Part shown: piece by piece, positions 16,842-59,743 of the stretch
Numbering within the stretch: position 1 is the first letter of the stretch
How the letters are laid out: each line of letters opens with the position of its first letter
IMG/VR virus record: IMGVR_UViG_3300032334_001259
Coordinates: 186,001-250,000 of that record
Reading direction: 5' to 3' (one strand)
DNA from: a virus
DNA: 64,000 nt
Position numbers and translations under genes: made by a program
Notes under the pieces: generated by a model
Database searches by the model: none
What the model was told of the DNA's origin: nothing
What the model saw: the letters and a program-made list of their open reading frames with translations, nothing else

Positions 16842-18126
16842 TTTTTGTTTGGCACCTTGGACCCACACATATATATCACCACAAGGTGAGCGTAGGTTAT
16901 GCTGTGCATCACGAGAACCCGCACAAAATTTTAAACAGTATATTGACACTGAACACGGAAATGGTGAATTTCAAGCCTTAGCACTAGAGGAATGGTGGAA
17001 TGGTGAACATATTAGAAGAATAAGAAAAGAGTGGTTATCTGGAACAATCCCAAAAGAATGTGAAGTATGCGATAAAAAGTTACTTAATACTTCTGTTTAT
17101 CGTGATTACTTTGCTCATCTCTTCGGTCATTTACGGAAGGATATTATTTCTTCTACTGACCATGAAGGTTATACAACCATAGAACCAATATCCTGGGATT
17201 ATCGTTATAGTAATGTATGCAACTTTAAGTGCCGTATGTGTGGTGACATGTTAAGTAGTGCATGGGAAGTTGAAGTGCGTAAAAATGATATGGTTGACAT
17301 AAAAAATCCAAAGAACTATTGGATGCAACCAAAGAATCGCCATGCTATTCGTGATTTTACTCGTGATGTAGTAATACCAGAATTTCGTGAAGCTATAGAA
17401 AACAAAACTGTGCGTGAAATCTATTGGGTAGGCGGTGAACCACTATTGTATGACGAACACTGGACTTTCATGCGCCGCATCGTTGAATTAGGTTATGCAG
17501 ATCAGGTCCGTGTGCGGTATAATACGAATTTAAGTTATACTAAAGATAAAGATGGAACTCTTTGGGATTTATTACACCACTTTCCACATTGGGAAATATG
17601 TGCAAGTTTAGATGGAACAGGAGATATTGGTGAGTATATTAGAAGTGGTCTTAATTATAATGATTGGTTGGATAATTTTAAACAAGGAATCCAACATCAG
17701 CGACATGTTCGCCAAATGCGTATTGATTTTACTCTTACTTTGCCTGGTTTATATGATCTGGCCAATATTATTAATCTTGTTGATTCTCTTAATGTTTCCC
17801 TATTAAGTAAAGTAGTATTTGCTTTTAGCCCTGATATATTATTAAGTCCATTAGCTTTACCTCGTAATATATTAATACCACTTATAGAAAATATACAAGA
17901 AAATATAAAATCAAAAATAACTTACAGAACTCAAAGTTTGTGGGATGTATTGGAACATCTTAAAACTCGTCAAACTTTTGAAGAAGAATTTCCTGACAAT
18001 TATAAACAAGAGGCAAAACGAGGTAAGGCGCATCTTTTAAAATTGGAATCTATTCGTAAAGATGCTAAAATAAAATTAGAAGATATCTTAACTGGTGATA
18101 CCTTAGATTGGTGGAATAGTATATGA
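16834..18126 (+). CDS. Radical SAM protein (5 of 5)
   Basis: 430 residues from the ATG at 16834, chosen over an in-frame TTG two codons earlier because ATG is stronger and the 8-base overlap is typical of this operon. The core motif is CNFKCRMC (C129, C133, C136) with WVGGEPLL, where the usual T of TGGEP is V. The auxiliary cysteines are C5 (NDFCLAPW), C23-C24 and C76/C79. The C-terminus ends DTLDWWNSI. The next gene starts on an ATGA overlap, so it is very probably translated together with the unknown protein that follows. Confidence 0.8.
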   Translation: MNDFCLAPWTHTYISPQGERRLCCASREPAQNFKQYIDTEHGNGEFQALALEEWWNGEHIRRIRKEWLSGTIPKECEVCDKKLLNTSVYRDYFAHLFGHLRKDIISSTDHEGYTTIEPISWDYRYSNVCNFKCRMCGDMLSSAWEVEVRKNDMVDIKNPKNYWMQPKNRHAIRDFTRDVVIPEFREAIENKTVREIYWVGGEPLLYDEHWTFMRRIVELGYADQVRVRYNTNLSYTKDKDGTLWDLLHHFPHWEICASLDGTGDIGEYIRSGLNYNDWLDNFKQGIQHQRHVRQMRIDFTLTLPGLYDLANIINLVDSLNVSLLSKVVFAFSPDILLSPLALPRNILIPLIENIQENIKSKITYRTQSLWDVLEHLKTRQTFEEEFPDNYKQEAKRGKAHLLKLESIRKDAKIKLEDILTGDTLDWWNSI

Positions 18127-40694: not shown

Positions 40695-41825
40695 TTATTC
40701 TACTCTTCTTTCTATGTCACAAGTAATACAATGTAAACTACCTTCCCAAAAAACATCATTTGACCATTCAACATAGATTGCAGTAATACCATCGTTTTTT
40801 AAAACTGAATAAAAGTTCCTGTCATAAAACGGTAAAATTATTGTTTCTGGATTAATTGTTAAACAATTAACTTTTTTGTTATTTTTTTTAAAAAGAGGTT
40901 GCCACTTATGTAACCACAAACTTGGATCGTATTGTTCTTGCACAAAAGAAGATGGCAAGGTTTTAATCCACTCATTACTATTTTCTGGAACATATATTTT
41001 TTTAAAATAATTAGATAAAACGTTTTCTTTATTAAAAGAAATTATTGAATCAGAATTTAAAATACAAATTTCACTATCTAAATGTCCAATTGCATCAACG
41101 TAAATTAATTCAATTCCCAAAAAGTTAAGCCAATTTTTCATCCATATTTTGCCTAATTCTGTTCCACTATATTTGCTAATAAAACACTTACTATTATGTT
41201 TTAAAATAGAAGCAGTGTGAAAATAATTTTTTGAATAATTTGAAATGTTATGTTTTATTAACCACTCCAATTTATTAAATGGATCAACTTTTTTTATATT
41301 TTTAACAAAACTTTTTGCATGATTTATATTTTTTGGTGGAAAAATTCCTACCATTTTGAAATAATCATCATATGTTTTTAAAATATATTCAGGATTAATT
41401 TCTACATCTTCTTGTAAATTTACCTCAGTTGAATTGACAATTAAATTACCATCCCTTAATAAATCATCACAAATTTTTTCTAGCCACAAATGTTGATATC
41501 TACGTTCAACATAAGGTCCATACGTTGTAAAAAACATATTACCATAGACCATATAAAAATCACGCATGTTTATAAGTGGGTCATGATTTATTATTTCAAC
41601 ACAATTATAATTTAACGGTTGCTTTGGTCGTAAAACTTTAACATTTAGTTGTTCTAAAATATTTTGAAAATTATTCAGTTCACGATTTGATTGTTCAACA
41701 ATACTAACAAAATCTTCTTGTTTTTTATCATCATACCTTGAAGGAATTTTATCATTTTCAAAAACAGAACCTAATATAACAGTTTTTAAACTATCATATT
41801 CATTCCAACAGTGTATTTTGGTCAT
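40695..41825 (-). CDS. Glycine amidinotransferase-like enzyme
   Basis: 376 residues. Family enzymes move an amidino group from arginine to an amine through a cysteine intermediate. The expected residues are present: an N-terminal E-Y-x-x-L-K-x-V-I-L-G opening, NMRDFYMVYGN (86-96) with the catalytic-type Asp, GHLDSE with H248, and the C-terminal GSLHCITCDIERR with C366. The length fits (about 380 in the family). The gene is more AT-rich than its neighbours, which suggests transfer. It is the last of three genes behind the late promoter at 43153-43159. Arginine deiminase activity is an alternative within the same fold. Confidence 0.78.
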   Translation of the reverse strand: MTKIHCWNEYDSLKTVILGSVFENDKIPSRYDDKKQEDFVSIVEQSNRELNNFQNILEQLNVKVLRPKQPLNYNCVEIINHDPLINMRDFYMVYGNMFFTTYGPYVERRYQHLWLEKICDDLLRDGNLIVNSTEVNLQEDVEINPEYILKTYDDYFKMVGIFPPKNINHAKSFVKNIKKVDPFNKLEWLIKHNISNYSKNYFHTASILKHNSKCFISKYSGTELGKIWMKNWLNFLGIELIYVDAIGHLDSEICILNSDSIISFNKENVLSNYFKKIYVPENSNEWIKTLPSSFVQEQYDPSLWLHKWQPLFKKNNKKVNCLTINPETIILPFYDRNFYSVLKNDGITAIYVEWSNDVFWEGSLHCITCDIERRVE

Positions 41826-41828
41826 AAA

Positions 41829-42182
41829 TTAAACGCTTTTTGGACGATTTTGACGGTCATGCTTTAATTTAGCAGCAAAGGCATCTGGGGTCAATTTATA
41901 TTTTGCAATAAAAGCATCATGTAAATCTTTTGGGTCAACTTGGAAAGCCACTGATATGTTTTGCATTAAATCATCAATGCTTGCATAATCTATTTGTTCC
42001 ATATCATCTAATTGGCTTCCAAGACGTGCAACAGCACCCATCATATTCTTACCTTCTACACCTCTTACAACAGTGTCATACTTCCAACGTGCTGCCATAA
42101 GACCACGTGCACCAGCACTTATAGGATTGCGTCCTTGAATCGTAGTGCTCATTGCTGCTTCAATAATTTCTTTAACTTTCAT
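41829..42182 (-). CDS. Late protein with capsid-targeting-like leader, 117 residues
   Basis: Starts MKVKEIIEAAM, where IIE-A fits the I/L-x-E-A cleavage site of T4-type prohead proteases. The rest is basic at its start (IQGRNPISAGARGLMAARWKYD) and helical later (DPKDLHDAFIAKYKLTPDAFAAKLKHDRQNRP). It overlaps the DctP-like gene by one base (TAATG) and lies just ahead of the amidinotransferase. I infer a small packaged or head-associated protein. Confidence 0.55.
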   Translation of the reverse strand: MKVKEIIEAAMSTTIQGRNPISAGARGLMAARWKYDTVVRGVEGKNMMGAVARLGSQLDDMEQIDYASIDDLMQNISVAFQVDPKDLHDAFIAKYKLTPDAFAAKLKHDRQNRPKSV

Positions 42183-43135
42183 TAGGTTGCCATAATTTTT
42201 TTAAGTAATGTGGGAGCAAATAAATTTTTAACTAATTCAGATTTGTAAATTTCAGAAGTCATTTCTTTAAATTTTTTCATTTCATCTACACCAAATTCAA
42301 AAAACCCACTGCATCTATTTTTGCTTTGCTCTACAAATTTTTCACTATCCTTAATAGTTTCTGTTCTTTCAATTAAAGCGGTTTTTTTAGCAGTTTCTTT
42401 AAATAATTTTTGATCATTTTCTGATAGTGAATTCCAAAAATCATTTGATATAACAATAGTTGTTAAAAACAAACTATGATTTGTATTTGTGATAAAAGGT
42501 GTTTTGTGTTTGACTTTATCAAATCTGACCAAAGTTGTTTCACCACCATCAAAATTAATATCTTTCATTCTTTCAAAGTGTGCGGATAAATCATCACCAT
42601 GTTCATCTAAAATCGCATTTGCTCCTAAAATATCATAAACCTTTTTTGTAATTGGGCTTTCTGAACAACTAACTGTTTTACCCTTAATATCATCTATTTT
42701 TTTTAAAGGTTGATTACTTACCATGATACGGAATCCACCGCTGTAAGTAAAAGCTAATCCTCTCATTGCAGTATTTTTACCTAATAATTCTAAAAGATTT
42801 TCTCCTATAGAACCATCAAGAACTCTGGAAGCATGGTCATGGTCTTGAAACAAAAATGGCATATCAAATATATAAAAGTTATTAAATTTTGAACCTATTG
42901 CCGTAGTTTGAAACTGTGCCATTTGAAATTTGTTGTCACGTAATGATTTATAAAAACTTGCACTATGATTATAACTAGGATTAGAAAAAAATTCTTTTCT
43001 AGTTAAAACTTCAATATTGATTCGTCCACTTGTCTCTTTTTCAATTATATTTTTAAAAGTATTTGCTGATCTTAAAAATAGATTAAGAGGTTCATGAGCA
43101 ACAACCCAACGACAATTTATTGAAGTTTCAGTCAT
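42182..43135 (-). CDS. TRAP-type (DctP-like) solute-binding protein without signal peptide
   Basis: 317 residues, the size of a mature DctP protein. Typical segments are visible: NTFKNIIEKETSGRINIEVL, YIFDMPFLFQDHDHASRVLDG, GFRIMVSNQPLKKIDDIKGKTV (R147 being the carboxylate-binding Arg) and FLTTIVISNDFWNSL, with a long C-terminal helix. Bacterial DctP proteins are periplasmic and have a signal peptide; this one starts directly at TETSINCRWV, so it should stay in the cytoplasm. The gene is AT-rich and has a strong AAAGGA site and a late-type promoter. It might bind a small organic acid in the infected cell, but this is speculation. Confidence 0.72.
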   Translation of the reverse strand: MTETSINCRWVVAHEPLNLFLRSANTFKNIIEKETSGRINIEVLTRKEFFSNPSYNHSASFYKSLRDNKFQMAQFQTTAIGSKFNNFYIFDMPFLFQDHDHASRVLDGSIGENLLELLGKNTAMRGLAFTYSGGFRIMVSNQPLKKIDDIKGKTVSCSESPITKKVYDILGANAILDEHGDDLSAHFERMKDINFDGGETTLVRFDKVKHKTPFITNTNHSLFLTTIVISNDFWNSLSENDQKLFKETAKKTALIERTETIKDSEKFVEQSKNRCSGFFEFGVDEMKKFKEMTSEIYKSELVKNLFAPTLLKKIMAT

Positions 43136-43187: not shown

Positions 43188-43595
43188 TTAAACTTTACCA
43201 CTTGGGTCCATAATAGGCGGTAGACCTAACTTATTGGTTTTATTACCAAATTTGGCGGCTTGACGCTGTGTTTCGCCAGGTTTTATATCAACTGTCATGC
43301 TCATAGCATAACGTGGGTCTTTTGCCATCTTTTTATTGCCAGCAACTACGCCTACACCAGCAGATTCACGGTAAACTTTTTCGGCACCAACAGGGTTAAT
43401 CTTAAATCCCCACATCTTTAATTTATATAATAATTCTTCTTCATCTTGTGCAACAAAATCATATTTGTTTGTATAACCATAATAGGTTCCATTAGGACGT
43501 TTTGTTACATATGCAGTTTCGCCTGTGCGTGGGTTATCATATACAGTGGCGTAAGTTGCTTCGTCTAACTGTGAGAATAATTCGTTTAATAACAT
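43188..43595 (-). CDS. Late unknown protein with capsid-targeting-like leader, 135 residues
   Basis: The start at 43595 overlaps the stop of the GIY-YIG gene (TAATG); upstream ATG at 43610 is inside that gene. The N-terminus MLLNELFSQLDEATYA contains LDE-A, the T4-type protease site. The next ~50 residues (DNPRTGETAYVTKRPNGTYYGYT) form a small beta unit, and the end (GNKTNKLGLPPIMDPSGKV) is a conserved tail in several phage proteins. Probably a small packaged protein; no enzyme motif. Confidence 0.6.
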   Translation of the reverse strand: MLLNELFSQLDEATYATVYDNPRTGETAYVTKRPNGTYYGYTNKYDFVAQDEEELLYKLKMWGFKINPVGAEKVYRESAGVGVVAGNKKMAKDPRYAMSMTVDIKPGETQRQAAKFGNKTNKLGLPPIMDPSGKV

Positions 43596-44239
43596 TACAT
43601 TAAGTCCCATTTTTTAAGAGACCATTTTTTAACCATATCACGTGATAAATTTACTTTGGTTGATATCTCTCTTGCTGTTAAACCTTCATTTTTTAACATC
43701 TGAATAGAATCAAATTGTTCTTTCGTTAAACCACGACGAATCATCGCTCGTTTCTCTATAATTGATTTTTCCCACTTTACCCAAGGTTTTTTCTTACCTT
43801 TATGTGATTCTGATATTTTCTTTTTAGATTCTTCCGAATGAATTTTACCGTGCATTCTTGTATAATTTTTAGCAATGCCTTTTAATGCTCTACTTCTTTT
43901 TACATTTGACTCTTCTGACATAATTATGCCATTATTGCCATCGCCACCTTTTGTAGAATTATATCCATTTTTATAGGTATCAAATTTTTCTATAAGTTCT
44001 ATTTCTTTTTGTTTAGCAACTTCTGCGGAATCAACCAATTCTAATAATTCTATCTTCCACACATCAGTTCCATACTTGTTTATAGCATTGTAAAATTTTC
44101 TATTGTCACGAATTTTTATAGCATCTTTCTTATGCTGTTCAAATCTTTCAAATATGGTATTACCAGTAAAACCAATATATGATTTACCATTTACATTATT
44201 TGTAATTTTATAAACAGAATAGGTTTTTGCAATTACCAT
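43595..44239 (-). mobile_element. GIY-YIG homing endonuclease gene
   Basis: 214 residues from the ATG at 44239, which has GGAG upstream; a TTG at 44254 is not needed. The domain opens with YSVYKITNNVNGKSYIGFTGN (GIY-YIG shape), R33-like ERFEQHKKDA and the closing ELIEKFDTYKNGYNSTKGGDG. NUMOD3-like SEESKKKISESHKGKK motifs and a helix-turn-helix GLTAREISTKVNLSRDMVKKW follow; these bind DNA. It sits between two late genes with overlaps at both ends, as intercalated homing genes in T4-like phages do. Confidence 0.85.
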
Positions 44240-45174
44240 GCACGGCAACTCCAATATCTTGCAGTTGTTCTATCTTTTGCTGTTTTGCAATTGTGTCTGG
44301 CTCTAAAAGACTTTCTGCGTTTTGGATTTGACCGCTTTATTCTCATTTTTTTGTCACCAAAATTTACTTTAATTACTTTGCCTGTTTTTGGATTTTTCAC
44401 GTACACTTTTTTCTTTTTAACATCGCCCTTCATAGGTTTGCCAAGTGGAACTTTACGACCATGATATTCTGCTTCTGCAACGAGTGATTCATGAAGTTCA
44501 TCCATAAAGAAACGAACTTCTTTGTCGCCTTTGTTAAGAACAATATCATCATCGTCTTCGTCAATATCCCAACCCATGTTGCTTAACATTTTTACGGCTT
44601 GGGCATGCTTACCTTCATCACCATGCCACCACATCTTTGCCAAACGTTTTAGAGTTTGGTGATTATCTTGCATAGAAACTACTTCACCTTCTGCTACACT
44701 ACTTTTCTGTGCGATTGCACGTTCTGCAGCTTGGTTGATGTCCTCACGACTTGCGCTATATGGGCTTACATTTAGCGTGGTGATTTCTTCGTATGCAGGC
44801 GTCATTTCATCATCGGTTTTTACAACTTTTTTAAGAAGATGATAATTTGTCTTACGAACATCATCAGACTCATGACCACTTGTTGCAATAAAATAATCAT
44901 CACGATAATGCTTTACATAATTGTTGCCACCAAAATCACGTTCTCGCCAAAGTTTTGCTTCACCAAGATATTTGGTTTCAATTGCGCCTAAACTTTCTAA
45001 TAAACCAAGTAATTTTTCATCACCAAGTAATGTAATACTTTCGTTATCCATTTCCATAATTTCAGTATCTACTTGTAGAATATTACTGAACTCAAGATAG
45101 ACACCATCACCAATGGTTGGACGATCTTCGCTTATGGCTGTAAGTTTTTCAATTAGGGAACGCATATCACTCAT
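44233..45174 (-). CDS. Late head-associated-type protein with basic RARHNC tail, 313 residues
   Basis: Starts SDMRSLIEKLTAISED, close to but not exactly the packaging leader pattern. The middle has LGEAKLWRERDFGGNNYVKHYRDDYFI and SVAEGEVVSMQDNHQTLKRLAKMWWHGDE. The C-terminus, KRRKSFRARHNC followed by ARYWSCRAW, is a basic Cys/Trp tail that I know from many T4-like phage proteins, role unproven. It is preceded by a late-type promoter and an AGGA site. I infer a late protein that enters the capsid and may bind DNA. Confidence 0.6.
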   Translation of the reverse strand: MSDMRSLIEKLTAISEDRPTIGDGVYLEFSNILQVDTEIMEMDNESITLLGDEKLLGLLESLGAIETKYLGEAKLWRERDFGGNNYVKHYRDDYFIATSGHESDDVRKTNYHLLKKVVKTDDEMTPAYEEITTLNVSPYSASREDINQAAERAIAQKSSVAEGEVVSMQDNHQTLKRLAKMWWHGDEGKHAQAVKMLSNMGWDIDEDDDDIVLNKGDKEVRFFMDELHESLVAEAEYHGRKVPLGKPMKGDVKKKKVYVKNPKTGKVIKVNFGDKKMRIKRSNPKRRKSFRARHNCKTAKDRTTARYWSCRAW

Positions 45175-45193: not shown

Positions 45194-45200
45194 TATTTAT
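45194..45200 (-). promoter_or_regulatory. T4-type late promoter core ATAAATA
   Basis: Minus strand AAAATAAATAAC, 20 bases upstream of the ATG at 45174. Confidence 0.55.
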
Positions 45201-46147
45201 TTTGCTTTGGTGCTTACACGAATTGGTGCTTTACCTGTTCCGCCAGTATCTTTACCACCACGACCTGCTGCATTTTGTGCTTTACGTTTACGAGTAACTG
45301 CACTGCGTTTTTGTGCCGCACTCATTTTACGTGCTTTGGCTGCTGGTACACATTTTGCATAGCCACTCTTGCTGCCGCTTGTTCCGCATGGTGGATGCTT
45401 ACCGCCAACCTTCTTGCCAATATTAACCCACTTGTCTTTAAACCACTTGTGTAGATTGCCCTTGGCTTCTGGTAATACAAGATTTCCGCAATGAATACAA
45501 TAATCAACTTGTTCAAGTAGCACACTCTCGGTAATTGGATCACATGTAAGTTCTGTGCTTTCTAAGGTCATTTCCATAGCGATTTTTTTCTTATATACGT
45601 ATAGTTTGTAACCTGAAGCATCATCGCTAAAAATCTTTTTCTGTTGGACTGGATCAGTTACAGCCTTAAAACCCATCTGCTCAAAGAATTTTGCTGCCCT
45701 ATCATATAACTTGATTCTGCTTGGTTCGTTTGATTTTGCACCCATGACAATTACTTCAGTTTTAGGATGTCTTGCAATAAAGTGATTCAAACAATAGGCA
45801 ACGCCATTGAATATTTTAAAAACAGTATCTCTTTCAGTGCCAGTTGCAGCATGGGTATCAGGTCTGCTCTGCGTTTTATTTTCAAATGCCAATACATAAT
45901 AATTTTCATTATATTCTTTAAATGTGACTTCAATTTTGGTTTTATTAACGGTGAAATCATAATCAGAACCGTAATTATCTGCATACACATCAAAATTTTC
46001 TGGCGCTTTGTTTACGTCGATAAATTCTTCAATTTCTTCGCTTTCGTTCTTGACGCAGTTTGGATACTTCTTTCCAAACATTGTTTTCATGCCTTCTTTA
46101 TGATAGCCTTTCCAACATGCTTCGCCAAGAACATCTTCCATCTTCAT
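45197..46147 (-). CDS. Late protein with packaging-type leader and basic C-terminal tail, 316 residues
   Basis: Starts MKMEDVLGEACWKGYH, with LGE-A as protease site followed by CWKGYHKEGMKTMFGKKYPNCV, a short domain shared by many T4-like phage proteins. Residues ~45-185 read as a GNAT-like alpha/beta part (DFTVNKTKIEVTFKEYNENYYVLAFENK ... LYDRAAKFFEQMGFKAV). A CIHCGN zinc-ribbon-like pair precedes the tail HPPCGTSGSKSGYAKCVPAAKARKMSAAQKRSAV, again basic. It therefore joins three modules seen separately in phages. GNAT assignment is tentative. ATGA overlap upstream. Confidence 0.6.
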   Translation of the reverse strand: MKMEDVLGEACWKGYHKEGMKTMFGKKYPNCVKNESEEIEEFIDVNKAPENFDVYADNYGSDYDFTVNKTKIEVTFKEYNENYYVLAFENKTQSRPDTHAATGTERDTVFKIFNGVAYCLNHFIARHPKTEVIVMGAKSNEPSRIKLYDRAAKFFEQMGFKAVTDPVQQKKIFSDDASGYKLYVYKKKIAMEMTLESTELTCDPITESVLLEQVDYCIHCGNLVLPEAKGNLHKWFKDKWVNIGKKVGGKHPPCGTSGSKSGYAKCVPAAKARKMSAAQKRSAVTRKRKAQNAAGRGGKDTGGTGKAPIRVSTKAK

Positions 46148-46881
46148 TTGGATTTATTTCCCCAGTTTTTAGCACCAGCCTTGCGGCACTTAACTAACGC
46201 ACCGCTTGCATAAGCACTTGGCCATACTTTATAACGGCTCTTAACTTTGTAATAACAAGCATCTTTCTTTTCATTCATAAGACTTGCTTCATACATTAAT
46301 CCACCACAATGTGGACAACTTTCTTCTACAGCTTCTAACTCATCTGTTGTATCACCAGTAACAGGATATGTCTTGCCACCAACATTGAATGATTTTTTAC
46401 CTGCTTTTATAGCATTCATTCTTGCATCAGTAAAGGCATTGGATTCTTCCATGTCATCGTGTTCAGCATTACCAATGATTTCATTATAATTGTCCATGCA
46501 AAGATAATCATGACTCTTACTCAACTCTATAAGTTTTTCAGCAACATCGTGTAAATCCATATCAGTCTTTGCATCTTCACGTGCATATTCCATGATTCTA
46601 ATAAGCAATGGAACATCCATTGTTACAGTATCTGTAGCATCTGCTTCTGGAATTACTTCAACATTTTCTTGTGGAATTACTTTTGGTTTACGAATAGCAC
46701 TACCTGGTATCATCTTGTCCATTGCAAGTTCAACACCAGCACGTTGTTTTTTGCTTTTACCAGCAGCATGACCCTTCATTAAATTAGGGTTGCGTGATAA
46801 TCGCTTTGTTACATAAGAAGTAAGAGTTTTATTGCGTAGTTCTTCTAAATCTGTCTCAACAATAATATCATTTATACGCAT
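46144..46881 (-). CDS. Late protein with leader and basic NWGNK-type tail, 245 residues
   Basis: MRINDIIVETDLEEL gives a leader like those of its neighbours, with IVE-T instead of E-A. A basic region follows (SYVTKRLSRNPNLMKGHAAGKSKKQRAG). The middle is acidic-helical (MDVPLLIRIMEYAREDAKTDMDLHDVAEKLIELSK). It ends CPHCGGLMYEA and DACYYKVKSRYKVWPSAYASGALVKCRK...GNKSK, a tail I recognise from several phage proteins, adjacent to a C-x-x-C pair. Possibly DNA-associated in the head. ATGA coupling on its downstream side. Confidence 0.6.
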   Translation of the reverse strand: MRINDIIVETDLEELRNKTLTSYVTKRLSRNPNLMKGHAAGKSKKQRAGVELAMDKMIPGSAIRKPKVIPQENVEVIPEADATDTVTMDVPLLIRIMEYAREDAKTDMDLHDVAEKLIELSKSHDYLCMDNYNEIIGNAEHDDMEESNAFTDARMNAIKAGKKSFNVGGKTYPVTGDTTDELEAVEESCPHCGGLMYEASLMNEKKDACYYKVKSRYKVWPSAYASGALVKCRKAGAKNWGNKSK

Positions 46882-48948: not shown

Positions 48949-51900
48949 TTAAACTTCACGCAAAGACAATCTACCCGTCTCATATTCTCTTGTAAATGTA
49001 TCAAGAAGTGCTTGACCACCAGCTTCTTTATAGTGTTTTACCAATATTTCATATGCTTCCGTTGGTGTATCAGCACCAACTTCAATAAATCGATCAACAG
49101 AGGTATCTCTATATAATGCAAACACTTTACTTGCATTTGCACGACCAATACGGTCTACAATTACATTAGAACGCTGTGGCTGTGGTTTTGGTTGTGGTTT
49201 TGGTTTTCTTACACCAGTTTTATAATCAGTTGGTGTTACCAGATGATATGGTCCATTACCATTACTAATATTATTTGCAATGTTGCGATAACCGCCATTA
49301 TTAAGATTTGCTAATGCACTTTCTTCACTATCGCCACGAACACGAACAAATACAAAGTTATTTGTATCACTTACAACATAGAACTCAATCTTGCCGCTAC
49401 CAACAACAACAATGTGATTTATATCTTGCTTGCCTATGGCTTGACGTGCGTTTCTGCTGCCCCAATGCAATCTACGATTACCACGATAAACAATCATATT
49501 GTTATCAAATGCATTTGCATAATAATCAGCAATTTCTGCAACTTGATCTTGTGTATATTTTGCTGGATCAAAACGTGCAATAATATGGTCATCATAATCT
49601 TCAATGCGATATGCAAGAGTATTGTAAACCTGTTCAGCATTAGGTTTGCCATCCAAACCGTTTCGCTCAATTTTTATGATTTCACCATAAAGTGATGCAA
49701 TGTTATTATCACTATAATTATATCCTATAACATTCAAGTAATTTTTAACATCTTCTCTGCTAACATTTGGTATAAGATTTTTTACAGCTTCAAATTCTAT
49801 TTCATCAGTGTTTGCTTGATTTGGATAAAGTCCTAATCTGCTATACTCACGATTCTTTAAACCATTGCCCTGCATATAAATCGTTGTGACGTAAATGTTA
49901 AAATATGGGAACTTTAACAAATATGCTTGTGTATCCATATTGCGTTCATTTAGCCAATCATATGCAAGTTTAATCATTTCATATAGTTGTTCACCATGAA
50001 CTTCTACTACTTCATCACCTAATTTAGTTTCAATTTTAGCAGTAATTTTACCTTGACCGATTGGTTTAACTGGCTCACGTGACTTACGAACTGCTTGAAC
50101 TTGACGCACCAATTCTTCTTTGTCAATATCACCAGTAACATATTTTGCAAATATATCAACTGTGCTACTGTCTTTCTTTACGCTATCTACAATAAGTTTA
50201 TAAAACTTCTTGTGATATTCTTGTTTGCTATCTTCTGGATCAGCAGCCGCAGCCATAGCACGAACATAACGTAACATTGTGTTACGGATTTCATCATACT
50301 TTTCAAAGTAATTGCCACCAGCACTACGAAACTCAATATAATTAGACTTGATGTTTACACTTACGTAACGATCACCTTTAGTTCCACTGATAATTTTGTT
50401 TACTTCTCTATTAGTTTGGTCAAGTAAACCAGCACGTGCATCATCCAATATCTTTGGTAGTGACTTACGGAAATCACGTGTTTCTGTTGCTTTATATGCT
50501 TGGTCAAACATACTCTTTGTCCAACGGCTGTTTAGTCGTTCAAAACGGTCTAATACATACTTGTCACCAAGCAACAATATAAGTTTAAGGTGATTTATAT
50601 TTGCCATAGTTTGGTCAGGAACACTAACACCAATATGGAAACCTGTTGTGCGATTAGTATAATAACGGTTACGCTTTGCCCATGTGAATACGTTATTAAG
50701 TGCTTCAAGTGCATCATCAAGTAACATTGGTGGTGATACAAGTTCTACACCGCCATCTTCAAAGTCTTCTGGACTATCTAAACTGCTATCTGGTTCAAAT
50801 ATCCAGTAATCACCACGACTTGTGCCGTGATAACCACTGCTTTCAACTGCGCTATAACCTGTTGCATTTTCAAAACTATTCACTAAATCATCATAAGTTA
50901 CATCACCTGAACTACTGCCATCAGTCATATATGGCCAATCAAGACTATCAACATTTGTTTCACGATTAATGTAACGTGCAAAACCTTGCATTGTGTCAAT
51001 TTCGTGGATTCTTAAAAAGTCTTGCCAGTTTTCTTTATCGTTTTCATTTTCCCAATTTTCACGAACAGAAGATTCGGCTTCATCTTTTTGTTCTTCGGTT
51101 ACTTCACTGTAATCATCTACGCCTACTTCATCAGCAATTGCTTGTTTCCATTCATCGCTGTTTTCATATTCATAATATTGATCACTTACATAATCGCTAA
51201 AGTTTTCATAGAATGCTTCTAATGCACGTTCTACACTGCGACGACTATTGCCATAATCACCTTCTGTAAAGAAGTCTATAATCATACGTTGGCGATCTTT
51301 GTAAGTTTCATCTGCTGGAAAATCTTCATCTTGATCATAATCTGGCTCTGGGTCTTCTTCTTCACCTTGTAGACCAGGTACATACATTTCAGTTTCAAAG
51401 CCAACACGCATTTGTTGTGCAAACTCGCTCTTGGCAAATGCTTCCAAACTCTTTGGATTCATTTTTACTTCTGCAAGGAAAGATTCTGTTAGACTTTCTT
51501 CAATGCTTTCGTTGCGTTCTGGAACTGCTACAATAGTATAACCTGGTCCCATATTATGTTCAGTTGCCCAACTTTGTGCATAACGACGAGCAGCAGTTTC
51601 ACTTGCAGCAGTAAATGTATGGTAAACACCGCCCATACTACCTACAATATTATATGTAGTTTCTCCTTGCGGTGTAGCACGATGCTGTGCAATAATTAGT
51701 GGTGGTATTGTATTGCCAGCAATATCATAACCACGCTGTATTTCCCAATCTGCATATTGTCGTTGTTGTTCTGGTTGTGGTCTTGGTTGTGGAATTAGTT
51801 GACCTTGCGCATCCCATAGATTATTGTTGTTTGGTGTTCTAATTGCAATATTTGCTAATGATAGACCACGTTGTTGTGCAAAACTTTGTGCTGCTTGACT

Positions 51901-54900
51901 TGCTTGGTAAAAACTTCGTGCTTGTGTTGCTAATAATTCTGTGCCATCGCTTCGGTTTACAACAACATATGTTCCGCCAGATTGTTGTTGCTGTACTGGC
52001 TGTGCTGATGCACCGCCAACAGTTCTCCATTCCCACCTGCCATTTATAAGACGATTATCATCTGCCCATTGTCTTGCATATTGGTATGCTGCTGCTTGAC
52101 TGTCAGCAGTAAAACGATGAACAACACCGCCTTGCGATAGTATTTCAAATTGTTGTCCTGACTGTGATGCTTGTTGTGTTTCATTAGGTCTAAACAGATT
52201 GTATGAATCAAGTGCTATATTATTTCTATTTGCATATTCACGAGCTGCTGCAATAGCCTCTTGGGTAGTAGTATAAGTTCCTTGTGCAATTACTCTATCA
52301 CCACTACTGGTTCGCATTTGGAATACAGCGCCAGCAGTTTGGTATGGCATTTGCGGAATAGTTGCAGCAGTTTGTGTTTGTCCAACAGTTTGTGCATCTG
52401 TTTCACGGCGTGTCATAAATTGCGGAACATCAATCATTTCACCACTTGGTGCTTGTAGTTGAACACTATCAGGATAACCACCATCACGTGCAATTCTGCG
52501 ACCATAACCACGAGCACGATCCATTACATCAAGTAGTGTGCCAAACATAGTTACTTGACGTGAACCGTTTATAAACAACATAAAGTTTTGTTGTGCGTCT
52601 TGTGGTGTTTGTGTTTGTTGTGGTTCGCTACGGCGTGTTTCGTTGGCTGTAAAAACATTATAATATGTATTAACACCCATATAATTGTGTTTTAATTCAT
52701 AATTATTATAATTTACACCACGACCACGCAACCACCTAAATGCTAAATCAGAAGCATCGTATTTGTTATCTGCACGAACAATCTGCACTGCTAATTCTGT
52801 ATCTTTATAAACTATTTCATAACGATTGCTACCACTGCCAATACCAGTGTCACTTGCAACAAACGCCAGTGGTGGTAGTGCAGGCATTAAACCACTTACA
52901 TACGTAGCATTTTTCAAACGAACCAGCATTACATCTTGTAGATAATAGCCACTGTCACTGCTTGTCCAATTACGTGCATCGTCATAAACTTCATAAGGAT
53001 CATTGCCATAAAACTTTTTAAGAACTGTTCCGTTCTTGGTGCGAACTTCATATTCCTCTACACCAGAACCTTTTTTATCACGACTAATAGCACGTTTACG
53101 CTGTTCATTACGAACATGTGATAACAGTGCAGTCTTTGGAATAGTGCCGCTTACATATTGACTAAAATACTTGATTGTATCTGTATCTTCTTTTGGTGCA
53201 TTAGTTGCTAATAATTTATAAAACTTCTTTGCATATTCTTGCTTTTCTGCTTCTGGATCAATCGCAATACTCAATGCATAAACTGTGCGGTAAAGGGTGT
53301 TTATAACTTTATCTAAATCCATATCTAACCAATTACCGCCAGGACTACGAATCTCAATACGATTATCTTTGGTGTTGATACTGGTAAACTTATCAGTATT
53401 AGTATCGTGAATCATCTTACTAACAGTTTTGTTTAAGTTAGTGCGAATCATACTAATTGCTTGTTCTGCTTTGCCTGGATTACGCTTGATTACAGTGGCT
53501 ACTTTATCTAATGCACTTACTGCATAATTATTACCAAGACGACCGAATGTATCAAGAACATACTTGTCTCCTAAAAATAGTGCCATCTTTACATAATCAA
53601 GATTTTGCAAACTATAACCAGGCAGACTTACATTCATATGCAGACCAGTGGTTTTATTGGTATAAGCATTTCCACTCTTTGCCCACGCTGCAACTTTCTT
53701 TATAACATCTACCATTTGCGGAATAGTTAGTGGTGGACTTACAAACTCCCAACCTTCACCACCACGACCGCTGCTTGCATGCAAACTACTATCTGGTTCA
53801 ACCTTAAAGTAATTAGGTTTTTGGCGTTGGGTGTGATAACCACCACTTACTTGTATATCATAACCTACGGCTTGACTAAAACTACGTGCAGGCGGACCAT
53901 CGCCACGACCACGACTATTATCATAATCTGGTTCTGTCCAGTGCGGCCAATTTATAGTTCCACTAAAATAATTGTGAATGTCACTATATGTATCACCACC
54001 AATAACACTATCTAAAAAGTCTTCTACAAGTGAGCCGTCTTCGCTTGCTTTATCATACCACTTTTCATAGTTTTCACGAGTGAAGCGCATGTAAGCATCA
54101 ATTGGTGGTATTTCAGGAAATAGTTCACCTTGCTTTTCATAATCACGACCATAGGTTTTATCTAACCATACTTGATATCGTGTATCAGTTTGTCCACTTT
54201 CTTGACTATTTGCCCAATTATCAAACGCAATTTTAGCATAAGTTTCATATTCACCAGCAATACTTTCTTGAACTTGTTGTATATCACGGCGAGTATTATG
54301 GTCACCACGGAAGAATTCCATAATTGAATTTTGTAAATCAGTTAGATTATCTGCAAATATGTTTCCATCTTGGTCATAATCTGGTTCGCTGTCAAAGTCT
54401 TCGTATGGATCATAGTCATCGTCATCTTCAAACTCTGTAACGATAAGTTCAAACTCTAAACCAGCACGTGCAAGTGGCAATGCATCAACTGCTTTTTTAA
54501 GTGCAGTAGGACTCATTGCAACTTCATTTAATAATTCTTCTGTAATCAAACTATCGCCAAGCACTACATCTTCAAGCCAAGGAATCTTTGGACTTTGTTG
54601 ATCTCCACGTGGATATTCATCCCATGGAAACTTTGCTACTGCACGGTCAGTAAGAGTAGGACCACCACCAACTGTTCCAAGAATACTTGGTGCGTGTTCG
54701 CTTTGCTTTTGTGGTCCAAGTAAGCGCATAAACTTTACCTTGTCTCTTGGCATTACATAATCATAAGAAAGTTGGTTATCAATTGTTCCATCAATAATTA
54801 TATCTACTGCAATATTTTTGAATCCAAGTGCGGTTTGTGCATATACACGATAAGTCTTTCGCAGATCAGGCAACGTTCCTTGAACAAAGAATGTGACAGT

Positions 54901-57486
54901 TGCTTTTGCAAATCGCACATATCCAAGTTTAAATGCTGCTTCATATCCATCTATACCTTGGCTATGTAGATAACCTTCGTGATATTCTGGTGGAACATAA
55001 ACAACTTTACGATCAGGCAATATCCAACCATGTGTTTCATTTGGGTCAAGTGCTTCTTCAATGCTTTCAGCCTTTTGCATCCACTTACTTTTAATGTATT
55101 CAATTACACCCATAGTATCTTTAATATTATTCTGCTGCATGAATCGCACAATCTTGCGACCATTTTCATAATCAGTATCACCAGGCTTTCGTGAATTGCT
55201 TAATTCTCTACGTAAACCAAAGTCATCACCATCAATATTATAATAACGCAAGTCAAACAATATCTTGCTTGCTTCTTTGCTTAATGTTGAACGATTCTGT
55301 CCAAATAACAATTCAACATAAGGAGCCAAATAACTTTTTCTGCTATATTGCTTACGTGATGGTTGTGGACCTTTAAGGATATTCTTTGCCGCACCAATTG
55401 TAATACTCTTTGCAGTATTTTGTAATCTCCATGCTTCTTCATCGGCATAAAGATATGTTGGAATACCACGCTTTTTTGCAGCAAGTAATACACGGCGCAC
55501 CGCTGGACTTTGGAACTCATGTTGTTCTTTAATTAAAACATGAACACTCATTACTGGTGTAATTGCAATAGTGCCATCACGACTGAATACACGGTCTTCA
55601 CTTTCACGATGACGTGTAGTGCTTTGGTCATTCCAATAATCAATTGGTTTTACTTTATAATTTTGGTTTAACCAACGACCATTCAATACAAACATTACAG
55701 CACTATTACCAACATATTTGTGATAACCACCGCTACGACTGCGTGTAGTGCTTAAAAAGTATGGATAACCTTTTGGTTGTAGTTTATATTCCCAATCACT
55801 GCCAACAGTGTTGCTCAACTTAAACTCACCACTTGTTAATATTTCAGCGGCAGCAGTTGTTCCTGTGTAATGGTATAGAACATCAGTTGCTAATTCTGTT
55901 AGTGGTTCAACGCCTTCATCAAGTTGTGATTGTATACTTTTAACAATTTGTGGTGATGCTTTTCCGCTTGTCCATTCAGTTTCAATACTGCCATCAGGAT
56001 TCATCCAGAATAATGCTGCTTCACCATTGTCAATAGCATCAAGATAACGATCAGCAACATAGAAATTATGATGGAAATCATTTTCTGCAGCTTTTTCATA
56101 TGTATAGGTTGCTAATACATGACCATCACGTGTATCAAATACACCAATGTAAAATGGTTTACCACGGAAACTACCAACATTCTTGTTGGTGCTTTCTTCT
56201 AAATCTTTACGATGACTACGCTTGTAGTATGAACACCAACCATTAGGCGCAATCTTGCCTTTTACCGCACTACAACCATGAGGAGGACGCCACATAGTGC
56301 AGTGGTCGCAACGTTGACCATTGCGAGGCATTGCCTGATACTTTGCTTCGGCTTTGGTTGATTTTTCTGCGGCTTCTTCAACTTTCTTTTGTGCAAGATG
56401 CATTATATCTTTTTTAGGAACAACATAAACATCAATGGTTTTCTTGTTCTCTACATCAATCGCTTTTTTCATACGATTTAAACCATCAGCAACACTTAAA
56501 TGACCATCATCATTTTGTATTACAAGTAGCGGATAACGTGTGTCAGCATTCTGCATACGCTCACGCTGTGCTGCATTATCTTGCCACCAACTTAAATCGT
56601 GTTTAATTTTATCTAATGGAAAATTCTTGTGCAAATATTGTGGTTTAGATTGTGCAAACTTTAATACCGCTTCTACACTAAACTGATTGCCAGCATCATC
56701 GCCAAACTTACTACCGTGAAAGTAATCTTTTGCTTCATACTTTGGTAAACCGTATAAATCTAAATCAACACCGTGTGTAGAACCATAATAGGTATCATCT
56801 ACATTTGGTTTATATGGTTTACGACCAACCTTTACAAGTTTTGGTAAATCATCCCAATCACCACCAATGCCTGGTGCTTCTGTAATGTTTTCTTCAACTG
56901 CTTCGCCTAATCCCAAACCAATACGCACTGCTTGCATAAGTGTTTTGCCATCTACCATGATGTTTTGTGGGACTTGTGTAGCACGTTCAAAAGCATCTGC
57001 ATCACCACTCTTTGCTGCTTCACGTGCATTAGTAGCACTGGTTAGTCGTGGACTTTCAACAAATGTAAGTGGTTCAAATTTATAAAAACCGTGTGCAACT
57101 TCTTTGCCATTATATTGTTCAAGCACTGGACGCATACTTGCCATATCATCTTCGCCAGCAACAAAGGTTGCACTACGGAAACCTTTTTCATAAAGATAAG
57201 CAGCGGCTTGTAGGAATGTTTTAATATTTGGATCTTCTACGATATGACCTTTGGTTTCTGGATATAATGTATAAAGCCAACGTAGTTTTAAATCATATGG
57301 CAGTGGATTTTTTTTCTTGTCTTGTGACTTACTTAAAAATCCTGCCCATGCACCATTCTTTGCACTGGTAATTGTAGTTTGGATTAATCCCTGATGACCA
57401 AAATGTGGTGGATTTAGTCTGCCAAAGAAGAAAGAGATATGTGGTCCGCTTGCTTCTTTTAATGTGCTGTTAATAATTGTCATCAT
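48949..57486 (-). CDS. Giant multidomain protein, possibly packaged in the capsid (2845 residues)
   Basis: Leader TIINSTLKEASG (LKE-A, cut after residue 11). Residues 14-195: nucleotidyltransferase-like, with GRLNPPHFGH and SPRLTSATNAR. 205-375: ParB-like, with LSVADGLNRMKKAI. 388-425: four Cys (C393, C396, C405, C418) in a HiPIP-like pattern. 530-690: ADP-ribosyltransferase-like, with YHYTGTT (H539), YFLSTTR and RESEDR (E628/E630). 989-1450 and 2007-2465: two copies of an amidoligase-like domain (GLEFELIV/GFETEMYV, FEPDSSL, E-W-E/ELVSPP, GLH/GFH). 1477-1988: seven degenerate ~75-residue repeats. 2480 on: an eighth repeat and an unknown beta-rich end. It starts at ATG-ATG behind a late-type promoter. 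Confidence 0.75.
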   Translation of the reverse strand: MMTIINSTLKEASGPHISFFFGRLNPPHFGHQGLIQTTITSAKNGAWAGFLSKSQDKKKNPLPYDLKLRWLYTLYPETKGHIVEDPNIKTFLQAAAYLYEKGFRSATFVAGEDDMASMRPVLEQYNGKEVAHGFYKFEPLTFVESPRLTSATNAREAAKSGDADAFERATQVPQNIMVDGKTLMQAVRIGLGLGEAVEENITEAPGIGGDWDDLPKLVKVGRKPYKPNVDDTYYGSTHGVDLDLYGLPKYEAKDYFHGSKFGDDAGNQFSVEAVLKFAQSKPQYLHKNFPLDKIKHDLSWWQDNAAQRERMQNADTRYPLLVIQNDDGHLSVADGLNRMKKAIDVENKKTIDVYVVPKKDIMHLAQKKVEEAAEKSTKAEAKYQAMPRNGQRCDHCTMWRPPHGCSAVKGKIAPNGWCSYYKRSHRKDLEESTNKNVGSFRGKPFYIGVFDTRDGHVLATYTYEKAAENDFHHNFYVADRYLDAIDNGEAALFWMNPDGSIETEWTSGKASPQIVKSIQSQLDEGVEPLTELATDVLYHYTGTTAAAEILTSGEFKLSNTVGSDWEYKLQPKGYPYFLSTTRSRSGGYHKYVGNSAVMFVLNGRWLNQNYKVKPIDYWNDQSTTRHRESEDRVFSRDGTIAITPVMSVHVLIKEQHEFQSPAVRRVLLAAKKRGIPTYLYADEEAWRLQNTAKSITIGAAKNILKGPQPSRKQYSRKSYLAPYVELLFGQNRSTLSKEASKILFDLRYYNIDGDDFGLRRELSNSRKPGDTDYENGRKIVRFMQQNNIKDTMGVIEYIKSKWMQKAESIEEALDPNETHGWILPDRKVVYVPPEYHEGYLHSQGIDGYEAAFKLGYVRFAKATVTFFVQGTLPDLRKTYRVYAQTALGFKNIAVDIIIDGTIDNQLSYDYVMPRDKVKFMRLLGPQKQSEHAPSILGTVGGGPTLTDRAVAKFPWDEYPRGDQQSPKIPWLEDVVLGDSLITEELLNEVAMSPTALKKAVDALPLARAGLEFELIVTEFEDDDDYDPYEDFDSEPDYDQDGNIFADNLTDLQNSIMEFFRGDHNTRRDIQQVQESIAGEYETYAKIAFDNWANSQESGQTDTRYQVWLDKTYGRDYEKQGELFPEIPPIDAYMRFTRENYEKWYDKASEDGSLVEDFLDSVIGGDTYSDIHNYFSGTINWPHWTEPDYDNSRGRGDGPPARSFSQAVGYDIQVSGGYHTQRQKPNYFKVEPDSSLHASSGRGGEGWEFVSPPLTIPQMVDVIKKVAAWAKSGNAYTNKTTGLHMNVSLPGYSLQNLDYVKMALFLGDKYVLDTFGRLGNNYAVSALDKVATVIKRNPGKAEQAISMIRTNLNKTVSKMIHDTNTDKFTSINTKDNRIEIRSPGGNWLDMDLDKVINTLYRTVYALSIAIDPEAEKQEYAKKFYKLLATNAPKEDTDTIKYFSQYVSGTIPKTALLSHVRNEQRKRAISRDKKGSGVEEYEVRTKNGTVLKKFYGNDPYEVYDDARNWTSSDSGYYLQDVMLVRLKNATYVSGLMPALPPLAFVASDTGIGSGSNRYEIVYKDTELAVQIVRADNKYDASDLAFRWLRGRGVNYNNYELKHNYMGVNTYYNVFTANETRRSEPQQTQTPQDAQQNFMLFINGSRQVTMFGTLLDVMDRARGYGRRIARDGGYPDSVQLQAPSGEMIDVPQFMTRRETDAQTVGQTQTAATIPQMPYQTAGAVFQMRTSSGDRVIAQGTYTTTQEAIAAAREYANRNNIALDSYNLFRPNETQQASQSGQQFEILSQGGVVHRFTADSQAAAYQYARQWADDNRLINGRWEWRTVGGASAQPVQQQQSGGTYVVVNRSDGTELLATQARSFYQASQAAQSFAQQRGLSLANIAIRTPNNNNLWDAQGQLIPQPRPQPEQQRQYADWEIQRGYDIAGNTIPPLIIAQHRATPQGETTYNIVGSMGGVYHTFTAASETAARRYAQSWATEHNMGPGYTIVAVPERNESIEESLTESFLAEVKMNPKSLEAFAKSEFAQQMRVGFETEMYVPGLQGEEEDPEPDYDQDEDFPADETYKDRQRMIIDFFTEGDYGNSRRSVERALEAFYENFSDYVSDQYYEYENSDEWKQAIADEVGVDDYSEVTEEQKDEAESSVRENWENENDKENWQDFLRIHEIDTMQGFARYINRETNVDSLDWPYMTDGSSSGDVTYDDLVNSFENATGYSAVESSGYHGTSRGDYWIFEPDSSLDSPEDFEDGGVELVSPPMLLDDALEALNNVFTWAKRNRYYTNRTTGFHIGVSVPDQTMANINHLKLILLLGDKYVLDRFERLNSRWTKSMFDQAYKATETRDFRKSLPKILDDARAGLLDQTNREVNKIISGTKGDRYVSVNIKSNYIEFRSAGGNYFEKYDEIRNTMLRYVRAMAAAADPEDSKQEYHKKFYKLIVDSVKKDSSTVDIFAKYVTGDIDKEELVRQVQAVRKSREPVKPIGQGKITAKIETKLGDEVVEVHGEQLYEMIKLAYDWLNERNMDTQAYLLKFPYFNIYVTTIYMQGNGLKNREYSRLGLYPNQANTDEIEFEAVKNLIPNVSREDVKNYLNVIGYNYSDNNIASLYGEIIKIERNGLDGKPNAEQVYNTLAYRIEDYDDHIIARFDPAKYTQDQVAEIADYYANAFDNNMIVYRGNRRLHWGSRNARQAIGKQDINHIVVVGSGKIEFYVVSDTNNFVFVRVRGDSEESALANLNNGGYRNIANNISNGNGPYHLVTPTDYKTGVRKPKPQPKPQPQRSNVIVDRIGRANASKVFALYRDTSVDRFIEVGADTPTEAYEILVKHYKEAGGQALLDTFTREYETGRLSLREV
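51523..53058 (-). repeat. Seven degenerate ~75-residue repeats inside the giant protein
   Basis: Repeat units begin at about residues 1477, 1555, 1633, 1720, 1779, 1838 and 1943. Each reads as a strand with a Gly turn (for example NIVGSMGGVYHTF), then T/S-x-x-x-A-x-x-Y/A-A-R-x-W/Y-A and a second strand. The 133-residue protein at 57515 contains one more (FSADSQDEADRIGADWVEQ). Gln/Pro-rich linkers separate them. The units are recognisable only at the protein level, so they are old duplications. Confidence 0.7.
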
Positions 57487-57488
57487 AT

Positions 57489-57515
57489 AATCCAGATAAA
57501 ATATTTATCTGGATT
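57489..57515 (-). promoter_or_regulatory. Hairpin overlapping the late promoter of the giant gene
   Basis: AATCCAGATAAA (57489-57500) and TTTATCTGGATT (57504-57515) form a perfect 12-bp stem around a 3-base loop. It begins at the stop codon of the upstream gene and includes the ATAAATA core at 57502-57508, 16 bases before the giant gene's first ATG. There is no T run, so it is not a typical terminator. Confidence 0.6.
57502..57508 (-). promoter_or_regulatory. T4-type late promoter core ATAAATA of the giant gene
   Basis: Minus strand CCAGATAAATATTT, inside the 12-bp hairpin and 16 bases upstream of the first ATG of the giant gene. Confidence 0.55.
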
Positions 57516-57935: not shown

Positions 57936-57942
57936 TATTTAT
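57936..57942 (-). promoter_or_regulatory. T4-type late promoter core ATAAATA
   Basis: Minus strand CTAATAAATAATAC, 19 bases upstream of the ATG at 57916; it overlaps the stop codon of the ligase-fold gene. Confidence 0.55.
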
Positions 57943-59081
57943 TAGGTTGGTGTCCAACGATGTCTTGGAACCAATTTAACATTAGGTTCACCAGCTTTAC
58001 CATAAGCAACATAGCCCTCACCACCAGGCTCACCTTTTGTAGTTTGTGTAATGTCACTTAGTTCACTGTCAATTTGTTCAATAATATTATTCTTGATAGC
58101 ACGTAGATTTTCTAATACATTAAATGTAGCAAGGAATCCACGACTATTCTTGTTTACCCATTCAGTAATCTTATTCTGCATAGGAACACTTTGGCGACTG
58201 CTTGGTAACCATTCTAAAAACTTGTTAGCAAGTCCAGTTGTAATACCACTACGTGCCATTTGGTTGTTAAAATTATATAATACTTGCTTAAATCCAGACA
58301 TCTTCATAGCTGCAAGATTCTGGTCATTTAAGAAATTATCAATAGCAATCTTATTTGTGGCAACATACTTCTGTAAATTAGCAAGTGCAGTTGTATCTAT
58401 TTTTGGTTGTGATTGGGCATAACGTGGACCTAATACAATCAAGCCAGCAGTTTTATTAAATGCTGTAAAATCATTTATAGGTTGTTGCTCATCATCACTT
58501 AAACCAAACTCTGGGAAGTAAGCATGACCAACAGCTGCTGCTGTGCTTTTTGCAATACGTTGTCCAAGTTCACTATTTGCCTTAACACTGTATGTTACAT
58601 TGTTTGGTGTAAATGTGTAAGCACCGTCTTTAAGTGGTGGACGATTCATATAAAGTAAATCAGCATATACATAACCACGAAATTCTTTCGGTGTAGCTGC
58701 TTCAAATAGCGGCCAAAGGCTTGCAAATTGTGTAGCAAATGCTTGTCTTTGCTTGATTTCTTCTGGTGTTTCTGCTTTACCAGTTTGCATAATAAAACGT
58801 GCAAGGTCACCTGCACTTTGTGATTTACCATCTATGGTTCGTTTTAACCAACCGTTGTGACCAACCATGATGAATTTACCATCAGGTTCACGTCCCCAAT
58901 ATACTTGTGGTTTGCCATCCCATTTCCAACGAATATTTTGCTGTGGATTTTTGGCAATTTCTGCAAGTTTGTTTATTGCAGTAGTTGCACCCAAACTACC
59001 ACTTATAAGAACCAAGTCTTCAATATGTTGGAAAGCACGACCAACTTTTGGTGCTTCGGTAAGGATTTGGTTTATAAACAT
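57942..59081 (-). CDS. Nucleotidyltransferase/ligase-fold protein with packaging leader (DUF6267-like)
   Basis: 379 residues. Leader MFINQILTEAPKVG carries LTE-A, a full match to the T4-type protease site. IEDLVLISGSLGATTAINKLAE and RWKWDGKPQVYWGREPDGKF follow; K-W-D-G has the form of ligase motif I (KxDG). The C-terminal GEGYVAYG and VKLVPR resemble motifs IV and V. This is the pattern of a family of phage proteins I know as DUF6267. If active it could join or cap nucleic acid, but no enzymology is known to me. It overlaps the GIY-YIG gene by one base (TAATG). Confidence 0.65.
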   Translation of the reverse strand: MFINQILTEAPKVGRAFQHIEDLVLISGSLGATTAINKLAEIAKNPQQNIRWKWDGKPQVYWGREPDGKFIMVGHNGWLKRTIDGKSQSAGDLARFIMQTGKAETPEEIKQRQAFATQFASLWPLFEAATPKEFRGYVYADLLYMNRPPLKDGAYTFTPNNVTYSVKANSELGQRIAKSTAAAVGHAYFPEFGLSDDEQQPINDFTAFNKTAGLIVLGPRYAQSQPKIDTTALANLQKYVATNKIAIDNFLNDQNLAAMKMSGFKQVLYNFNNQMARSGITTGLANKFLEWLPSSRQSVPMQNKITEWVNKNSRGFLATFNVLENLRAIKNNIIEQIDSELSDITQTTKGEPGGEGYVAYGKAGEPNVKLVPRHRWTPT

Positions 59082-59743
59082 TATAAAATATTTAGTTTGT
59101 TTTTTCTATATGGGCCACGAGATTTTCCTTTTCTTGCATTCCCCATTTTAATACGTGTTTCACTTGATAAAGTTCTTCCTTTAAGAGATGAACTTATTTT
59201 TTGTTTTGTTTCTTCCGAACGTTTTTTTCCTTTATTTGCATTACCTATTTTTTCACAAATTTCTTTATTGTTTGGGTTATTTTTCTTTACTTTGCTTAAT
59301 TTGGCACGATGCTCTGGTGATTTTATTTTTCCTTTTGTTGCAATACTTAAATTATCGCAATGTTTTTTGGAAAATATTCTGCCTTTTTGTACAATACTCA
59401 TTTTAATTCGTGTTTCTTTGGATGGTGATAATCCACTTATTCCATCGCCGCCATCTGTTTTATTATGTAATATACCAGTGCCAATATCTTTGCGACCATA
59501 CCACGCAATCATACGCCGTTCTATTGCTAATGCACCTATTTCGGTTAAATTATGTTCTAAAATAATAATATTATTTTTGTTTTTTGGTGTAGACGTATTA
59601 TAATGCTTTTCATATGCACGTCTATCTTTGCCTTTACCAATATAATATGGAGTTAAATCATCTGCTCTTATATAAGCATATACGTAATATCCGCTTGGCG
59701 GATTAGTGCTGGTAAATACCATTGCTGTGTTCCCTATAAACAT
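59081..59743 (-). mobile_element. GIY-YIG homing endonuclease gene with NUMOD3 repeats
   Basis: 220 residues from 59743; an ATG at 59722 with GGGAA upstream (protein starting [18 protein letters not shown]) is an alternative start. The GIY-YIG core is visible as [16 protein letters not shown]-x-x-x-Y-E-K, and [27 protein letters not shown]. Three NUMOD3-type units follow ([29 protein letters not shown]). It is inserted just upstream of the ligase-fold gene. Confidence 0.85.

Follow-up and report, generated by a model that had tools for sequence, protein, structure and literature searches.

A 64,000-nucleotide window of viral DNA (positions 186001-250000 of the 338,435-base virus genome of IMG/VR record IMGVR_UViG_3300032334_001259) was found to carry one gene, P0001 (window 48949-57486, minus strand), that probably encodes a polyprotein of injected enzymes, expressed late, targeted to the capsid and cleaved into pieces by the phage's own prohead protease. 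The fused frame and its domains, the protease and capsid genes, a late promoter box and the conservation of the sites at both terminal and internal module edges were all computed directly, and a predicted protease cut-site appears at nearly every P0001 module joint. The initial annotation of this DNA had proposed a multi-enzyme protein with a packaging leader, which would be delivered with the phage DNA as an unusual early-takeover device; the multi-enzyme protein and its leader stood, and the single injected machine gives way to what is probably a polyprotein cut into separate enzymes in the head. That annotation had missed the recurrence of the leader-type site at internal module joints.

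P0001 is an uninterrupted open reading frame of 2845 amino acids (aa), the single gene first described except that its strand had been left unstated, and the opposite (+) strand across 48949-57486 is full of stops. Together with stretches amounting to 80 kb outside the window, the sequence showed the markers of a T4-like jumbo phage, namely a family-B DNA polymerase matching phrog_262, the major capsid protein gp23 (PF07068, 7.7e-99; 69% identity to Pseudomonas phages PA5oct and Paride) and a gp21-type (S77) T4-type prohead protease (PF03420, 1.9e-26). A second, independent metagenome contig contains a 100% identical copy of P0001, a third holds a 93% relative, and the 2286-aa relative L028 keeps its ParB/Cys region and everything C-terminal to it in one reading frame (57% identity to P0001 in the ADP-ribosyltransferase part, 73% and 65% in the amidoligases). 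Because of the identical copy and the one-frame relative, P0001 is judged from these sequences not to be an assembly accident. None of 50,697 phage records covered more than 17% of P0001 or held such a chain, megablast of the P0001 region against phages gave no match, and a scan of genome contigs confirmed no host link.

Modules and predicted joints of P0001

The protein opens with a leader-like segment, MMTIINSTLKE/A (residues 1-11; 57454-57486; all P0001 features are on the minus strand and the slash marks the predicted cut), in which the packaging-type LKE/A motif already recognized in the initial annotation occupies residues 9-11; the phage has the matching prohead protease and late box. 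This capsid-targeting-like segment has counterparts in homologous nucleotidyltransferase (NTase) leaders, as standalone NTases of T4-like phages start MKKFSEIIE/A (Melnitz) and MKKFSDFLTE/A (S-SSM4), both of which follow, as read from sequence, the T4 capsid-targeting pattern. Residues 12-195 (56902-57453) form a HIGH-superfamily NTase (phrog_3041, a PHROG cytidyltransferase, E=3.8e-32; phrog_395, 3.2e-20) in which HFGH and SATNAR motifs were recognized in the sequence and in alignment with homologues. A joint at residues 193-203 (56878-56910) holds the predicted sites LGE/A (195) and ITE/A (203), and 8+9 alignments place a recombination breakpoint there at 201.

The next domain (residues 270-372; 56371-56679; DGLNR motif) has a ParB/sulfiredoxin fold according to AlphaFold2 (AF2; pLDDT ~80 across residues 270-385), Foldseek (sulfiredoxin/SbnI/ParB, probability 0.98-1.0, E about 4e-3 to 1e-2) and phrog_17560 (8e-10). 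It is followed by a HiPIP-like four-Cys cluster (residues 373-431; 56194-56370) that ends at LEE/S (431), next to breakpoint 432. This cluster scored 19.3 bits against the HiPIP profile (E=1.4e-3), below the cut-off of 22, and the corresponding cluster of relative L055 scored above it (22.4 bits); the NCBIfam iron oxidase Iro gave 1.3e-8 and 35 bits against a cut-off of 100. A small domain (residues 432-524; 55915-56193) ends at the predicted site LDE/G (524), with breakpoint 520 seen in 12 alignments.

The ADP-ribosyltransferase (ART) fold module spans residues 532-811 (55054-55893), with LTE/L (531) before it and IEE/A (811) at its end. Its core was modelled by AF2 at a pLDDT around 90, and DarT ADP-ribosyltransferases were its only credible PDB structure matches (Foldseek, DarT 7omw, E=4.4e-4, probability 1.0, TM by target 0.46). 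No Pfam ART family matched P0001, Pfam DarT matched none of 33 ART-module family members, and the ART profile retrieved no relative from the PDB sequences, so that DarT has in common with this module a predicted fold and no sequence-family match. On the model, the ART module is DarT-like rather than Alt-like. Downstream, the 'ETHGW' module (residues 812-983; 54538-55053) ends at ITE/E (983) and is bordered by breakpoints 812 and 982; AF2 confidence was too low to assign a fold to residues 812-985 or 203-265.

The remainder of the chain contains two Amidoligase_2 domains, matched by PF12224 in two stretches (E=6.4e-14; 52.8 bits against a cut-off of 22), which both keep GxExE, ExVSP, TGxH and IExR in alignment with the Atu_ph07 protein. 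The first (residues 989-1470; 53077-54522) is preceded by LNE/V (988), and the second (residues 2007-2470; 50077-51468) by IEE/S (1997), LTE/S (2001) and LAE/V (2006), with breakpoint 2001. Between them lie tandem small repeat domains (residues 1471-1997; 51496-53076) recognized by eye and by a sub-threshold DUF2188 match. A repeat-like C-terminal region, called by sequence (residues 2471-2844; 48955-50076), ends at LRE/V (2844), and L028 ends IRE/V. No peptidase domain was found within P0001. All five kinds of region named in the initial annotation (NTase, ParB-like, Cys-cluster, ART-like and two amidoligase-like) were recovered, the ART as a fold, and structure prediction with AlphaFold, which it had named as a check, here combined with Foldseek, returned ParB/sulfiredoxin and DarT folds for the ParB and ART segments.

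Conservation of the predicted cut-site at module edges

The ART-module search found 63 loci, from which edge statistics were taken for 41 non-redundant T4-like homologues (20 standalone and 21 fused). ART proteins that stand alone measure about 290 aa and start MRATEFIAE/GATDILYHYTG, and fused proteins of 400-2800 aa carry ...ESQLDE/AASPVLFHYTG at the equivalent aligned position. P1 was Glu and P3 hydrophobic in 41/41, with P2 near random (3.0 bits). A hydrophobic P4 was found in 17 of the 20 standalone N-terminal sites versus only 3 of the 21 internal sites (Fisher p=7e-6), and the processing residues P3 and P1 were kept at every internal site (21/21). In T4 IPIII, mutagenesis has assigned targeting to residues 4 and 7 of the capsid-targeting sequence (CTS) and processing to residues 8 and 10 (PMC9026906). 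Asp at the P1 position of IPIII abolishes processing and leaves targeting intact. The pattern of the internal ART-edge sites indicates that the processing half is kept and the targeting half lost, matching the T4 IPIII split. Excision of residues 532-811 would yield 280 aa, compared with a median of 286 for the mature standalone ART. The phiKZ-like ART homologues are without the site and their records, which may be fragments, are without a PF03420 match; the contig that encodes the L028 polyprotein does have PF03420.

A second edge was examined at the start of the amidoligases, where hydrophobic-x-Glu was present in every relative in which the start could be identified, terminal or internal (LNE/VAMSP, LAE/VKMNP, LDE/VNMSP, LFE/INMSP, LVE/VEMTP and others). 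The Atu_ph07 protein has MRWQDISSKKLTE/LKMN aligned with the internal LNE/V and LAE/V of P0001. In L031 and L039 the chain consists of two genes, split exactly at this edge site that is internal in P0001, and the second gene of L031 opens with a short leader, MSDKDLILEEILNE/VNMSP.

Recombination breakpoints, called blind to any motif from all-against-all BLAST of the related proteins, pointed to the same positions. The well-supported P0001 breakpoints 201, 432, 520, 812, 982 and 2001 adjoin sites 203, 431, 524, 811, 983 and 2001, and breakpoints 250, 360, 1469 and 2474 have no site nearby; overall, 7 of 11 well-supported breakpoints fell within 4 aa of [LI]xE (p=6.6e-7). Across 32 related proteins, [LI]xE was 6.1-fold enriched at breakpoints with support of at least 5, and [LI].D, [LI].S and [LI].G were not enriched. 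From these comparisons, fused relatives among uncultivated phages evidently swap modules at [LI]xE-type sites.

Proposed processing of the polyprotein and competing explanations

The proposed sequence of events would begin with late expression of P0001 from its T4-like late promoter, after which the one N-terminal leader would bring the protein into the core of the prohead. There the gp21-type (S77) protease, acting in trans, would cut after hydrophobic-x-Glu at the module joints. Predicted products are residues 12-195/203 (NTase), 204-431 (ParB and Cys), 432-524, 532-811 (ART), 812-983, 989-1997 and 2007-2844, and the freed enzymes would be retained in the head beside the DNA and pass with it into the next host. 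We infer packaging, cleavage and injection, as well as any action on host NAD (nicotinamide adenine dinucleotide), nucleic acids or proteins. An NMNAT-type NTase beside a NAD-using ART would fit a NAD-centred conflict (PMC7824862). The scheme may well extend to a family of jumbo phages in which an exchangeable enzyme chain enters the prohead under a single leader, the maturation protease cuts it into effectors of equal number, modules recombine at the cut-sites and new enzymes are added as cassettes.

Several results weigh against such processing. The fused homologues are partly akin, and the ART-edge counts are consequently not fully independent; several relatives have FxE in place of [LI]xE at the end of their N-terminal leader. 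In PA5oct, a CTS-like N-terminal motif (10/84 versus 24/255, p=0.32) had no significant link to the virion proteins detected by mass spectrometry. As the leader motif is weak evidence alone, the case rests on module-edge conservation. Some Glu-containing control motifs were also enriched at breakpoints, because linkers are Glu-rich. An overall excess of [LI]xE in P0001 was rejected, the total of 22 against 21.9 expected being that of chance, so that some sites inside folded cores are surely fortuitous and the signal lies in position only. Lastly, no cut-site was seen in residues 1471-1994, and some domains there would not be freed. The giant proteins detected by mass spectrometry in PA5oct, in the syntenic ClpA-to-DNA-polymerase region, are tail-fibre-like and not polyproteins.

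The strongest competitor, though an unlikely one, is a packaged and mostly uncut polyvalent protein that is injected whole after leader removal and whose internal sites are fusion relics of CTS-tagged genes. Multi-domain polyvalent proteins are known, some of them transferred whole (PMC5512222), and the history of gene fusion is clear in this family; relics, however, would be expected to decay as a block, yet P3 and P1 are retained at all 21 internal ART edges with P2 and P4 left free. Considerably less probable is an Alt-like packaged ART device that acts on host RNA polymerase, the analogy drawn in the initial annotation. A packaging leader and an ART fold are indeed present, but the analogy is unsupported because Foldseek matched the ART module to DarT structures alone, P0001 has neither a Pfam ART match nor a PDB sequence relative, and Alt itself sits in a different, R-S-E clade (PMC5512222). 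Least credible of all is a multi-enzyme that is made late and stays in the cytoplasm, outside the virion, with coincidental leader and joint motifs, since the weak specificity of the leader motif alone is set against the conservation of the joint sites, the breakpoint test and homologues that start with T4-type leaders.

Relation to known packaged proteins

With T4 IPI-III and Alt and their protease gp21, the P0001 system shares an N-terminal leader, roughly 10 aa long, that closes with hydrophobic-x-Glu, a late box, an S77 protease and gp23. The T4 internal proteins differ in being single units with one leader, whereas P0001 is an enzyme chain with internal joint sites. Among the T4 proteins, cleavage reduces gp22, gp67 and gp68 to fragments and trims Alt at its C-terminus as well as its N-terminus (PMC5694885, PMC9026906); the terminal LRE/V of P0001 and IRE/V of L028 may be a likeness to the C-terminal site of Alt. 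Polyvalent proteins (PMC5512222, Iyer et al. 2017), which are probably delivered with the DNA, have in common with P0001 their large size and a mix of unrelated enzymatic domains (ART, ParB and others) whose order is shuffled, although amidoligase is absent from the main text describing them (PMC5512222). P0001 would differ in being cut in trans by the prohead protease, with no peptidase domain of its own. The ejection proteins of phiKZ and SPN3US come from the head, are injected and are cleaved after x-x-Glu by a gp21-related protease, as P0001 would be, but their cuts remove propeptides and do not part several enzymes (PMC5694885, PMC10052503). By analogy, we propose that P0001 acts like the T4 CTS internal proteins and overlaps the polyvalent proteins, with the trans-cut joint sites as the new element; the open-access papers found contain no description of joint-by-joint protease sites cut in trans.

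To our knowledge, packaged and injected phage proteins have mostly been found singly. If the proposed processing is true, the prohead cut-site marks module borders, and injected effectors could be found and separated from sequence alone. Fast module exchange and equal effector copy numbers would be explained, and the chain would suggest a natural way to load T4-type heads with several proteins at once. Candidate injected effectors to which this points include the DarT-like ART, the amidoligases and a superoxide dismutase.

Late promoter box and palindrome

A T4-like late promoter box, ATAAATA (57502-57508, minus strand), lies 22 nt upstream of the P0001 start codon and predicts late expression. 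The same box has been reported for jumbo phages CBB/GAP32 (PMC5259590), and the late box of cyanophage S-PM2 is NATAAATA (PMC2984593). Counting both strands, 144 kb contained 34 occurrences of [AC]TAAATA; the box preceded 16/55 late structural genes, 7/14 P0001-cluster genes (p=2e-4 for enrichment) and 4/69 others by no more than 80 nt. The exact T4 late promoter, TATAAATA, was almost absent. Enclosing the box is a 25-base palindrome, ATCCAGATAAATATTTTATCTGGAT (57490-57514, minus strand), that is conserved upstream of fused relatives, in some with a compensating change. As an RNA hairpin it was calculated at -13.2 kcal/mol (z -4.6), and it might serve as operator, bidirectional promoter or hairpin.

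Relatives and neighbouring genes

Module content varied among the relatives. L022 (3763-7182) encodes a 1140-aa chain with NTase and ART in which a Cu/Zn superoxide dismutase (2.3e-45), a candidate injected antioxidant enzyme, lies between Glu-ending sites. In L030 (5995-8106) the ART precedes a GNAT-like stretch (by eye) and LysM and phage lysozyme domains; a Tat-like segment was observed in it downstream of an INE/A site. Some fused relatives have alternative ParB-like modules, the 93% relative of P0001 has a different ParB module plus an extra one, and L060 and L063 contain Pol-beta-like NTases (by eye).

Seven neighbouring genes on the minus strand also bear leaders. Upstream of P0001, 57515-57931 starts with MRYSEIIGE/D from an internal ATG and resembles, by eye, the P0001 small repeat domains, and 57942-59081 (MFINQILTE/A) encodes DUF6267, which phrog_455 joins to an NTase in other phages. 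The others are 41829-42182 (MKVKEIIE/A), 43188-43610 (...LFSQLDE/A), 44233-45174 (...LTAISE/D, with an internal LVAE/A), 45197-46147 (MKMEDVLGE/A) and 46144-46881 (MRINDIIVE/T). Within this cluster lies a DctP-type TRAP transporter solute-binding protein (42182-43135, minus strand; NF037995, 1.3e-28), and in or beside it are a NUMOD3 homing-endonuclease-like gene and, by eye, a GIY-YIG-like gene (59081-59743 and 43595-44254, minus strand). A 376-aa protein (40695-41825, minus strand) is amidinotransferase-like by eye, its sole match being phrog_25854 of unknown function. Elsewhere in the window, 11637-18126 (plus strand) encodes five consecutive radical-SAM-like proteins followed by two large unassigned reading frames and an aminotransferase, and 8-2707 (plus strand) is the C-terminal part of a 4898-aa reading frame (record positions 174011-188707) in a tail-like gene region.
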